64,000 bases of DNA, taken from assembly GCF_001202035.1 (NCBI RefSeq), contig NZ_LGHT01000026.1:62001-126000 (forward strand), read 5' to 3'. Of the stretch, positions 41,484-61,292 are shown in pieces. Position numbers and translations under genes: made by a program. Each line of letters begins with the position of its first letter. The first letter of the stretch is position 1. The stretch is from Pseudorhodobacter wandonensis. Lineage in GTDB: Bacteria; Pseudomonadota; Alphaproteobacteria; Rhodobacterales; Rhodobacteraceae. The notes beneath the pieces are model-generated. The model had not been told where the DNA came from. It did no database searches and was given only the letters and a program-made list of their open reading frames with translations.

Positions 41484-41530
41484 CATCATCGCCAGTTGAA
41501 AGCGCCGCAGTGGAACGCTAGGAAGGGGCC

Positions 41531-56229: not shown

Positions 56230-56324
56230 AACGGGGCTTTCGGGTCAGGCAGAGCCTGCACTTTGGGCGCAGTTGAGCCGTTCCGTCCAGTCCTTGTTTC
56301 ATAATCCGGCGCCAAAATGCAAAA

Positions 56325-56344
56325 CGGGGGGCTAATGCCCCCCG
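56325..56344 (-). terminator. Rho-independent terminator after the NCS2 permease
   Basis: CGGGGGGC (56325-56332) pairs with GCCCCCCG (56337-56344), loop TAAT; on the minus strand it is followed by TTTTGCATTTTGG. Confidence 0.8.
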
Positions 56345-56366
56345 CCTGTTCGGTTATCAAAGGCGC

Positions 56367-57854
56367 TCAGTGATCTGCGACCGAGGCCGCTTTGCGCAGC
56401 TCTTCTTCGGTGCCTTTTGCGCCATTGAAAAACAGGTTCAGCAACACGGCCGAGATCGTCGTCAGCAAGATACCGCTTTCGATCAGGGGATGAATCGCAT
56501 GGGGCAACCACATTTTGAAATCGGGCGCGATCAAAGGGATCATCCCGAAGCCAAGCGATATGGCAACGATGAACAGGTTGAACCGGTTTTGCGCAAAATC
56601 AACGCCACTGGCCAGAATACGGACGCCCGTCGCGGCAACCATGCCAAACATCACCAAACCCGCACCGCCAAGCACAGCCGTCGGCAAGGCCTCGACCAAA
56701 GCCGCCATTTTCGGAATAAGCCCGAGCGCGATGAGGATCAGACCCCCTGCTACCGCAATGTACCGGCTTTTGATGCCCGTCACACCCACCAACCCGACGT
56801 TTTGCGAAAAGCTGGTATATGGGAAGGTGTTAAAGATGCCCCCGATCAGCGTGCCCAATCCGTCGGTCCGCAAACCTGCGGCAAGGCGGGGCTGGGTGAT
56901 CTTGCGGCCGGTCATATCGCCAAGCGCAAGAAACATGCCGGTAGATTCGATCATCACAACGATCATCACCAGAACCATCGTGATGATCATCACCGGATCA
57001 AATATCGGCATGCCAAAATGGAACGGCTTGATCAGTGCGAACCATTCAGCGCCTGCAACCTTATCAAAATGCATCATGCCAAGCACTGCGGCCAGCACCC
57101 CGCCGACAACGATGCCCAAAAGCACCGCGATATTGGCGACAAAGCCCTTGCCGTATTTTGCAAAGGCCAGAACTGCAGCCAGAACAATCGCCGAGACGGC
57201 CATATTTGGCAAGGATGCATAGGCCGGGTTATTGACCGAAGGCGCGATGCTGAGGCCTTTGGGGATAGCTGGCAGGGTAGAGCCGGTGGCGGCAGCCAAG
57301 TCGGTGACTTGTTTCAACCATTCGGCATGCTCAGGGTTAACGATTTTCGGCGCGGTCGGGCCCAGCGGCAAGCCAAAGATCCAGTTGATCCCGATCCGCA
57401 TCAGAGTGACACCGATGATCAGAATGATTGTGCCGGTGACGACCGGCGGAAAAAACCGCAGCATTTTGGATACTAAAGGCGCGATGAGCATGGCAATAAT
57501 GCCCGCGCCGATGATTGAGCCAAAGATCATGCGTGCGCCATCATAGCCCGGGTTGGACAGGCCGATTGCGATCATCGGACCAACAGATGCAAAGGTAACG
57601 CCCATCATCACCGGCATTTGCACACCGAAATAGCGGGTGACGCCCAAAGATTGAATGATCGTCACGATACCGCAGACAAACAAGTCGGCGGAAATCAGAA
57701 AAGCCACATCTTGGGGTTCGAGTTTCAGCACACGGCCAATAATCAGCGGTACGGCAATCGCACCCGCATACATTACCAGCACATGTTATAACCCCAGCGT
57801 AAAGAGCTGAGGCGTGGGTAGAATTTCATCTACCGGTTTTACTTGATCAGTCAC
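56367..57854 (-). pseudogene. NCS2 (nucleobase:cation symporter-2) permease with in-frame stop at codon 23
   Basis: The full gene would start at GTG 57854 (GAGAGGA seven bases upstream) and encode 495 residues of an NCS2 xanthine/urate permease; the NAT signature QNVGLVGVTGI is intact, as are about 12-14 helices. Codon 23 (57788-57786) is TAA between TLGL and HVLVMYAGAI. Family members have Gln there (the conserved QH of TM1), so CAA to TAA is the simplest explanation. A shorter frame from GTG 57782 (471 residues) is open, but would lack the N-terminus and part of TM1. In this cluster it should import urate or a related purine. Confidence 0.85.
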
Positions 57855-57925: not shown

Positions 57926-58450
57926 TCACAAAGGGTGGCTTTTGCCTTTTTCTGCCTTTGCGGGGGAATGGCCTTGGGGGTAAACCGTCCAAGGCTGGGA
58001 AAACCGGTGTTCTTCGAGGTTGGGCGTAGGTCCAATGCGATCAACCACGGCAAAAAGACCGGGCCCATCCAAAGGCGTCAGCACACCGTGCCAGGTGCCA
58101 CGGTGCAGGTTGATGCCTTGTGCGCCGTTGGTCAGGAATGCGCGGGGTGTGGCTTTGGGGTCGGCAGTAACGATAACAAGGAAAGGGTGCTGGGACATCG
58201 GAATGAAGGCTTGCGAGCCTTGGGGGTGACGTTCTACCAGATCGAGGATGTAGGGCAGGCTGCGGGTTTGGGCCTGAAAGATGGAAATACCAGCCTGTGC
58301 ATCGTCAAAATCAAGTTTAGCGCGGTCATGGAAGCGGCCGCAGAGGCCTTGGTTTATGATTTTGTCGGGGGGGCCGCATGCATCAAGCACATCGCCGAAG
58401 GGGGCGAAGGCTGTGGCGATCAGGGGTTCGATCTGGATGGCTCTAGTCAT
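57926..58450 (-). CDS. allA: Ureidoglycolate lyase
   Basis: Cleaves (S)-ureidoglycolate to glyoxylate and urea, the last step of the allantoin route. The 174 residues match the family: FAPFGDVLD near the start, HPQGSQAFIPM and LHRGTWHGVLTPL carry conserved His residues of the cupin-like fold. It lies 71 bases upstream of the permease and downstream of allE, same strand, so it belongs to the ureide cluster. Confidence 0.92.
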   Translation of the reverse strand: MTRAIQIEPLIATAFAPFGDVLDACGPPDKIINQGLCGRFHDRAKLDFDDAQAGISIFQAQTRSLPYILDLVERHPQGSQAFIPMSQHPFLVIVTADPKATPRAFLTNGAQGINLHRGTWHGVLTPLDGPGLFAVVDRIGPTPNLEEHRFSQPWTVYPQGHSPAKAEKGKSHPL

Positions 58451-58535: not shown

Positions 58536-59369
58536 TCAGCGCGGATTTAGGGGGCCGCGCAGATTGGCGTGGCGGTTGACGTCTTTGTAAAGCAAATAGC
58601 GGAAGGGGCCGGGGCCTGCGGCATAGCAAGCCTGCGGGCAGAAGGCGCGGAGCCACATGAAATCACCTGCCTCGACCTCTACCCAATCTTGGTTGAGTTT
58701 GTAGACGGCTTTGCCCTCAAGCACGTAGAGGCCGTGTTCCATGACATGGGTTTCTTCGAACGGGATAACGCCACCGGGTTGGAAGGTGACGATGGTGACG
58801 TGCATGTCGTGGGACAGGTCTGTCGGGTCGACAAAGCGGGTGGTGGCCCAAGCGCCATTGGTATCGGGCATTGGGGTTGGTTTTACGTCGGCGTCGCTGG
58901 TCACAAATGGTTTTGGCGCGGCGATGCCGGCGGCGGGTTCGTAAATCTTGCGGATCCAATGGAAGCGGGCGGGCGTGGAATGCGCGTTTTTCAGGCGCCA
59001 TTTTGTGCCCGCAGGGATATAGGCATAACCGCCGGGGCCGAGGTCATGCTCGGTGCCGTCGATGGACAGCCAGACCTCGCCTTCAGTGAGGAACAGGACG
59101 GATTGCGCGGCGGCATCGGTTTCGGGGTGGTCGGAACCGCCGCCGGGGGCGACCTCCATCACATATTGGCTGAAGGTTTCGGAAAAACCGGTCATCGGGC
59201 GGGCGATCAGCCAGAGGCGGGTTTTATCCCAGCCCGGCAGATAGCTGGTGACGATATCGGAGAACACCCCGCGCGGGATGAAGGCATAGGCATCGGTGAA
59301 CACCGCGCGGCCTGTCATCAACTGGGTTTGCGGTGGCAGGCCGCCTTTGGGGGCGTAATAGCTGGTCAT
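58536..59369 (-). CDS. allE: (S)-ureidoglycine aminohydrolase
   Basis: Releases ammonia from (S)-ureidoglycine to give (S)-ureidoglycolate, the AllA substrate. The 277-residue bicupin begins MTSYYAPKGGLPPQ; the metal site is in the C-terminal cupin (EETHVMEHGLYVLEGKAVYKLN, short form EETHVMEHG). It depends on manganese in characterised enzymes. The start overlaps the PuuE-UraD stop (ATGA), giving translational coupling with the upstream allantoinase. Confidence 0.92.
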   Translation of the reverse strand: MTSYYAPKGGLPPQTQLMTGRAVFTDAYAFIPRGVFSDIVTSYLPGWDKTRLWLIARPMTGFSETFSQYVMEVAPGGGSDHPETDAAAQSVLFLTEGEVWLSIDGTEHDLGPGGYAYIPAGTKWRLKNAHSTPARFHWIRKIYEPAAGIAAPKPFVTSDADVKPTPMPDTNGAWATTRFVDPTDLSHDMHVTIVTFQPGGVIPFEETHVMEHGLYVLEGKAVYKLNQDWVEVEAGDFMWLRAFCPQACYAAGPGPFRYLLYKDVNRHANLRGPLNPR

Positions 59370-60781
59370 GGCAGCATGTCCTTTAGGCGCAGCTCTGCTA
59401 TCCGTTCGACTTGGGCGCAGGCAGTGGCGAATTCGGTTGCGGTATCGTTGTTCAGGCGGGCCTTGAAAGCCGAGAGGATGCTGGCCTTGGTATTGTCACG
59501 CACAGCGATGATGAAGGGAAAGCCGTGTTTGGCGACATAGGCGGTGTTGAGTTGTTCAAATTCGGCGCGCTCGGGGTCGGTTAGCGCATCCAGCGCGGCG
59601 CTGGCCTGTTCGGCGGTGCTTTCAGCCGTCAGGCGTTTGGCGGCGGCGAGTTTTCCGGCAAGGTCGGGGTGGGCGGTGAGCACGCCGAGGCGTTCTGTAG
59701 CGCTGGCCGAGCGGAACATACGGGCCAGCGCGTTGTGCAAGCCTGTGGCGCTGTCATGTGCGGGGCCGAGTTCGAGCGCATGGGCGCGGCTGGCGATCCA
59801 TGGGGAATGTTCGAATACGCCGCCGAACTTGGCTGTAAAGCTGGCCTCGTCCATCTGACTGGGGCGCGTGCGGCGTTGATGCGGGTGCTGTGCGGCCCAA
59901 TGGGCGGCGATATCCATGCGGCGCGGGAACCAGACGCCGTCATGGGTGGCAGCGTAATCCAGAAACCGCATCAGCCCCGCGATTTTGCCCGGACGGCCGA
60001 TCAGGCGGCAGTGCAGCCCGATGGAAAACATCTTGGCAGCACCCGCAGCACCTTCGGCATAGAGCACGTCAAAGCTGTCTTTCAGGTATTGGAAGAACTG
60101 CTGCCCCTCAATATAGCCCGGCGCGGTGGCAAAACGCATGTCATTCGCCTCGAGCGTGTAGGGGATGATGAGCTGATCGCGGTCGCCTACCTCTATCCAA
60201 TAGGGCAGATCATCATCATAGGTATCTGAAATCCAGTCGAAGCCACCCTCTTCGGCGACCAGACGCACAGTGTTTTCCGAGCAACGGCCTGTGTACCAGC
60301 CGCGCGGGCGTGTACCCACCACTTCGGTGTGCAGGCGCACGGCTTCGGCGATTGCGGCGCGCTCTTCATCCTTGGGCATGTCGCGGTGCTCGACCCATTT
60401 CAACCCATGACTGGCGATTTCCCAACCTGCCGATTTCATCGCGGCGACCTGTTCTGGGTTGCGGGCAAGCGCTGTGGCCACGCCGTAAATGGTGACTGGG
60501 ATGTTGCGAGAGGTGAACAGGCGGTGCAGGCGCCAAAATCCTGCGCGCGCGCCATAATCATAAAGCGATTCCATATTCCAATGGCGTTTACCCGGCCAAG
60601 GGGCGGCGCCCGCAATGTCGGACAGAAAGGCCTCGGACCCCGTATCGCCGTGCAACACGTTGTTTTCACCGCCCTCTTCATAGTTCAAGACCAGCGAAAC
60701 TGCTATTTTGGCGCCGTTGGGCCAAGCCGCATCTGGCGGGTTTTGGCCATAGCCGGTCATGTTGCGCGGATATCTGTTCAC
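59366..60781 (-). CDS. puuE: Fused allantoinase (PuuE) and OHCU decarboxylase (UraD)
   Basis: A 471-residue fusion. Residues about 1-305 are a PuuE-type, metal-independent allantoinase of the polysaccharide-deacetylase fold (NMTGYGQNPPDAAWP, VSLVLNYEEGGENN, GWEIASHG). Residues about 310-471 are 2-oxo-4-hydroxy-4-carboxy-5-ureidoimidazoline decarboxylase (STAEQASAALDAL, KHGFPFIIAVR), which makes (S)-allantoin. The two act consecutively. Start GTG at 60781 has AAGGGG six bases upstream. Fusion is known in alphaproteobacteria. Confidence 0.93.
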   Translation of the reverse strand: MNRYPRNMTGYGQNPPDAAWPNGAKIAVSLVLNYEEGGENNVLHGDTGSEAFLSDIAGAAPWPGKRHWNMESLYDYGARAGFWRLHRLFTSRNIPVTIYGVATALARNPEQVAAMKSAGWEIASHGLKWVEHRDMPKDEERAAIAEAVRLHTEVVGTRPRGWYTGRCSENTVRLVAEEGGFDWISDTYDDDLPYWIEVGDRDQLIIPYTLEANDMRFATAPGYIEGQQFFQYLKDSFDVLYAEGAAGAAKMFSIGLHCRLIGRPGKIAGLMRFLDYAATHDGVWFPRRMDIAAHWAAQHPHQRRTRPSQMDEASFTAKFGGVFEHSPWIASRAHALELGPAHDSATGLHNALARMFRSASATERLGVLTAHPDLAGKLAAAKRLTAESTAEQASAALDALTDPERAEFEQLNTAYVAKHGFPFIIAVRDNTKASILSAFKARLNNDTATEFATACAQVERIAELRLKDMLP

Positions 60782-60823: not shown

Positions 60824-60932
60824 TGGTGCATGATTACCAAATAAAAGCGAAAGCACTTTATGGGCCATTTGATGGTCGCACATTGCGCAAATATCGGGCA
60901 GGTTTGGCCATGATTTGCACATGGAGAGAGAA

Positions 60933-61292
60933 ATGAGCGGTGGGAAACTGACGACGCATGTTCTGGATACGGCTTTGGGCAAGCCAGCGGCCGGTGTGAA
61001 AATCGCGCTGTTTCGGCTAACGGACGCAGGGCATGAAAAACTGGCCGAGACAGTGACCAATGCAGATGGCCGCACGGATGCGCCGATGTTGGTTGGTGAT
61101 GCGCTAAGCGTGGGAAACTATGAACTGGTGTTTTCAGCAGGCGCCTATTTGCGGGCCAGCGGGCAGGCAAAGGGTGACACGCTGTTCCTGGATGACATCC
61201 CGATCCGCTTTGGCGTGCCGGATGCTGGTGCGCATTACCATGTGCCGCTGCTTATTTCGCCTTTTGCCTATTCAACTTATCGCGGCAGTTAG
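60933..61292 (+). CDS. uraH: 5-hydroxyisourate hydrolase
   Basis: Hydrolyses 5-hydroxyisourate (product of uricase) to OHCU, which the adjacent UraD domain decarboxylates. The 119-residue transthyretin-like protein has the N-terminal TTHVLDTALGKPA and the diagnostic C-terminal YRGS (STYRGS). The ATG at 60933 has GGAGAG upstream. It is divergent from puuE. Cytoplasmic, as no signal peptide is visible. Confidence 0.95.
   Translation: MSGGKLTTHVLDTALGKPAAGVKIALFRLTDAGHEKLAETVTNADGRTDAPMLVGDALSVGNYELVFSAGAYLRASGQAKGDTLFLDDIPIRFGVPDAGAHYHVPLLISPFAYSTYRGS

Follow-up and report, generated by a model that had tools for sequence, protein, structure and literature searches.

The uric acid-xanthine permease UapA of Aspergillus nidulans (PDB 5i6c and others) is a distant and intact homologue of the gene described here. 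A protein from a congener of our species aligns to the UapA chain, with GLQH in TM1, and Table 1 of PMC3405029 rates Q85 and H86 of UapA as crucial, with a major effect and a Vmax under 10%. The NAT signature of TM10 appears as Q/E/P-N-x-G-x4-[RKG] where it is printed in PMC4346270. Much closer to our gene are the PbuX-type orthologues of what appears to be Pseudorhodobacter antarcticus and of other alpha- and betaproteobacterial genomes, with which it shares the subfamily profile and the neighbourhood, and four congener orthologues that are 84-85% identical to it, the gene described here alone having an in-frame TAA in place of the TM1 Gln codon. Recent nonsense pseudogenes occur in bacterial genomes, and our gene resembles them in that its conserved sequence is intact but for one stop; we found no difference between the two situations. 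A literature search on the genus turned up a Pseudorhodobacter genome paper and nothing about the use of purines.

The permease frame and its stop codon

The window, as we call the whole stretch of 64,000 nucleotides of Pseudorhodobacter wandonensis (GCF_001202035.1) that was analyzed, contains on its minus strand a gene for an NCS2/NAT permease, whose assignment to the PbuX (TIGR03173) xanthine permease subfamily is supported. The part after the stop reaches 488.2 bits with TIGR03173 (cut-off 414.15) and 317.6 bits with PF00860 (cut-off 27). The translation carries QNVGLVGVTG as the NAT signature of TM10, as expected for a family member. It fits the form of the motif with T before the last residue. 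At the TM1 Gln-His pair, where the Gln codon is TAA and only the His is retained, the gene departs from the family. The features of the frame are:

56367..57854, minus: ancestral frame of the NCS2 purine permease gene (PbuX type) in full, with one TAA (translation and profiles)
57786..57788, minus: TAA nonsense codon, in frame, in place of the conserved Gln of TM1 (Gln in 82/82 orthologues)
57852..57854, minus: ancestral start codon GTG, with AGAGAGG 7 bases 5' (same start place in four congeners)
57780..57782, minus: GTG at which re-initiation might give a 471-aa product without the TM1 Gln-His

Read from the GTG at 57854, the minus strand gives VTDQVKPVDEILPTPQLFTLGL-stop-HVLVMYAGAIAVPL..., that is, 22 codons, the TAA at 57788-57786 and then an open frame down to 56367, ending at the stop 56369-56367. 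In the four congeners the permease starts at the same position with ATG, ATG, GTG and TTG and the leader residues are nearly identical, which shows that the 22 codons before the TAA are truly coding. The original prediction had placed a ribosome site and a GTG upstream of the break; the AGAGAGG is a plausible site, and the start is common to the four congeners. The prediction had also named an outcome that would speak against it, relatives all beginning at 57782 with no conserved residues upstream, and the four congeners show the opposite. A PF00860 profile search of the whole genome passes through the gene and reports '1 TAA' inside it, although this reads the same assembly and is thus no independent confirmation of the base. 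TAA is a normal stop here, as 3 of the 14 window genes that were counted end in it.

The codon is invariably Gln in the relatives compared. Loci were retrieved with the portion of the gene beyond the stop, and hence without selection on this codon; we found Gln in 80 of 80 loci, which are the best 80 of 589 matches in the genome-contig set and therefore the nearer relatives. A set of 82 orthologues, made up of the congeners and the metagenome-assembled genome (MAG) G163 from the whole-genome set with the rest taken from those best 80 loci, has Gln in 82 and a stop at this codon in none, and another count gave 88 of 88 rows (87 distinct); the three sets overlap. The same 82 orthologues have the Gln-His pair, in agreement with the prediction that the residue before His is Gln in this family and that the nonsense codon falls on this conserved motif. 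A stop conserved in relatives, as programmed recoding or a suppressed stop would show, is absent from them (0/82).

It had been proposed that a single C-to-T change, from CAA to TAA, suffices to explain the break. This holds against two of the four gene-bearing congeners, whose codon is CAA; the other two have CAG, and because the Leu codon before the stop is also odd, more than one base differs from the congeners here. That Leu codon (57791-57789, minus strand) is TTA in the window and TTG, TTG, CTG and CTA in the congeners. TTA accounts for 8 of 506 Leu codons in 14 window genes and is found at this Leu position in 1 of the 82 orthologues. Compared with the congener that has TTGCAA, both centre bases are changed, giving TTATAA.

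The close pbuX orthologue has a patchy occurrence. Among nine genomes of the genus, the window's own included, it is present in 5, while in 3 the NCS2 matches are confined to distant pieces (32-36% identity) and the remaining genome, which is 84% complete, has none. In the family sample, a match at E<=1e-100 was obtained for 26 of 394 genomes, in 3 cases over the second part of the protein only, and a TAA is found in 2 of the 26, the window's own genome and G163. The class sample gave matches at E<=1e-150 in 3 of 385 genomes, one of which is the genome of the window, and added no other stop. The orthologue in the Rhodobacterales MAG (L028 1929-1940, the same place as G163:C90; L144) also has an in-frame TAA, at codon 4 after the ATG and well before TM1, where an internal GTG could serve as start. 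G163 and L028 appear to be the same MAG contig.

The ureide genes around the permease

The permease is the last gene of its run, with genes for a ureidoglycolate lyase, an aminohydrolase and a fusion protein upstream in the same direction. The four congeners and G163 have the permease and the ureide genes in this same order. The neighbouring features are:

56322..56347, minus: terminator-like hairpin after the permease (consensus scan; 5.4 kb contained 13 such sites, shuffled sequence 6.0)
57926..58450, minus: allA-type ureidoglycolate lyase, frame open (passes PF04115; highest-scoring NCBIfam model at 257.7 bits, just short of its cut-off of 260)
58536..59369, minus: (S)-ureidoglycine aminohydrolase, open frame (profile above Pfam or NCBIfam cut-off)
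59366..60781, minus: allantoinase PuuE fused to OHCU decarboxylase (UraD), open frame (profile above Pfam or NCBIfam cut-off)
60915..61292, plus: 5-hydroxyisourate (HIU) hydrolase, open frame, divergent (profile matches)

A urate oxidase (PF06181) is encoded on another contig of the genome. The ureide pathway had been described as otherwise intact, which is true of the genes examined, namely allA, the ureidoglycine aminohydrolase, the PuuE-UraD fusion, the HIU hydrolase and the urate oxidase. The break is not expected to have polar effects on the other ureide genes, since the permease closes the run and is followed by the terminator-like hairpin. Searching the assembly with PF00860 gave no second NCS2 gene, the window gene being the only one found, and searching it with PF02133 gave no NCS1 gene.

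Constraint on the gene and reliability of the base call

Apart from the stop, the permease looks like a gene under normal constraint. Over the 471 codons after the stop, dN/dS between the window and the four congeners is 0.077-0.094, within the 0.038-0.124 found for congener pairs, although dS in the window comparisons is 1.1-1.5, and being above 1 it makes both the ratios and any argument on age rough. The terminal protein branch of the window gene measures 0.049, against 0.073 for G001 and 0.124 for G006, with the sister tips G008 and G002 shorter still. At otherwise invariant residues the window has 4 changes of its own (I to V, V to I, V to L and I to V), all conservative, and three congeners have 6, 2 and 6, G002 being excluded from this count as a near sister of G008. 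Among 194 columns that are at least 97% conserved, the window gene departs at 3, the stop among them, and three congener loci (L004, L012 and L013) at 3, 3 and 2. There is no frameshift in the permease gene, and the original prediction that everything downstream of the stop is intact, including the NAT signature, agrees with our finding no other break. Where its relatives have a sense codon the gene has a premature stop, and it shows no other sign of decay.

Because the gene is otherwise normally constrained, the stop, if real, is very young, and the earlier view of a very recent event or an error fits these data. Relaxed constraint over more than a small part of the branch would be expected to have left more change. 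This leaves three possibilities for the stop: it is very recent, it is false, or it is tolerated.

We favour, at a probability of roughly 0.6, the first of these, in which the only NCS2 purine permease (urate/xanthine-type) found in the genome has lost its function through a recent nonsense substitution. From the sequence, translation would start at the GTG at 57854, make a peptide of 22 residues and stop at the TAA. Urate and allantoin made internally would still be degraded, while the uptake of external purine bases would be lost or sharply reduced. The upstream catabolic genes are left untouched by the break, as the permease comes last in the run. We infer from all this that transport is lost, that the stop is recent and that the base call is correct; an otherwise intact gene fits equally well with one that is still used by re-initiation or readthrough. 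If the stop is real, the strain is predicted not to grow when external urate or xanthine is its nitrogen source, though the ureide enzymes are kept, and the use of allantoin is predicted to be unaffected provided that it can be taken up.

It is possible, though we rather doubt it, that the stop is a sequencing or assembly error in an intact gene. Normal constraint on the rest of the gene is what a whole gene would show, and the oddity of the neighbouring TTA, with at least two neighbouring bases differing from the congeners, points in the same direction. The window lies on a 337-kb contig, and the assembly (3.89 Mb in 45 contigs) is rated 100% complete and 0.48% contaminated, which argues against an error, as does the change being a substitution and not an indel. 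A search of the assembly for 16S rRNA found none, and the tRNA survey described below has gaps, which would suit a faulty assembly; however, 5 of 14 control genomes likewise gave no 16S rRNA, so its absence here carries little weight.

How frequent errors are in the window was judged against a congener contig (G001:C59), to which the stretch from 20.5 to 64 kb was compared; the first 20.4 kb have no match in that contig. Dropping matches that overlapped a better one by more than 30% left 40 alignments, covering 12,204 residues and 35,421 bases. Stops are contained in 11 of the 40; nine of these alignments were inspected one residue at a time, and the remaining two were checked as well. All stops other than the one at 57788 are upstream of likely gene starts or in frames antisense to a stop-free gene, the starts and strands being our own judgement. 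The permease is the only sense gene judged interrupted in the 35 kb alignable to the congener contig, so errors must be infrequent, and widespread errors in the window were rejected after inspection of all 11 stop-bearing alignments. A two-piece match near 41500, from a scan that omitted matches below 50% identity, was considered as another broken gene and rejected, as it consists of two divergent genes, one piece being antisense.

Expression past the stop and features of the leader

The inactivating substitution remains our preferred reading over a third one, in which the stop is real and the permease still works to some extent, by re-initiation at the GTG at 57782 or by readthrough of UAA by a Gln tRNA. 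This seems unlikely to us. Constraint on the gene is normal, and the GTG follows the stop after a single intervening codon; PMC5972666 describes re-initiation as frequent in prokaryotes. Against this, the re-initiated protein would be without half of TM1 and without both the Gln and the His, each of which is crucial in UapA according to Table 1 of PMC3405029. The GTG is an ordinary Val codon in the four congeners, which all have it, and it is preceded by GGGG and not by a good ribosome site.

A tRNA with a TTA anticodon (ochre suppressor) was absent from the 38 tRNAs found by a tRNA family search and ARAGORN, a survey that is incomplete, since Tyr and Ile tRNAs were not found either. Three anticodon-loop patterns of our own, with the matches of two of them checked, added no suppressor; two of the three had fewer matches than reversed controls, and thus the patterns are weak. 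A tRNA-Gln (TTG) is present in the genome. Such a tRNA may read UAA at a low level, UAA differing from CAA in the first base only, which would allow some readthrough.

A more specific form of re-initiation, in which the 22-residue leader is followed one codon on by a shortened permease that lacks the TM1 Gln-His and would still transport something, is very improbable; if true, it would challenge the view of this pair as indispensable in NCS2 proteins. Apart from the growth prediction, this is a routine point of annotation, the listed 471-aa permease from 57782 being probably not functional. That the protein normally starts at 57782, where the mechanical ORF list begins it, with the upstream similarity due to chance, can be dismissed, since orthologues have conserved residues and the Gln-His pair in frame upstream and the family profile crosses the stop. 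Whether it is the recent loss of one nutrient permease, which is the most likely, or an assembly error, which comes second, the event is an ordinary one.

In the first codons of the gene there is a palindrome, GGTAGA-N6-TCTACC (57834-57817, minus strand; permease codons 7-13), whose arms are the same in the window and the four congeners except for one base. A conserved leader structure was considered and rejected: the covariation term for the consensus of the five is positive, and identical codons in the leader and palindrome region run to at most 4, hardly above the permuted mean of 3.3. No known RNA from Rfam was found in the permease leader. The window leader folds better than its shuffles (z -2.42). 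In it, ATAACCCC (57880-57873, minus strand) is the exact complement of GGGGTTAT (57795-57788, minus strand), the end of which is the first base of the stop; this pairing is only partly kept in the congeners and is therefore probably due to chance.
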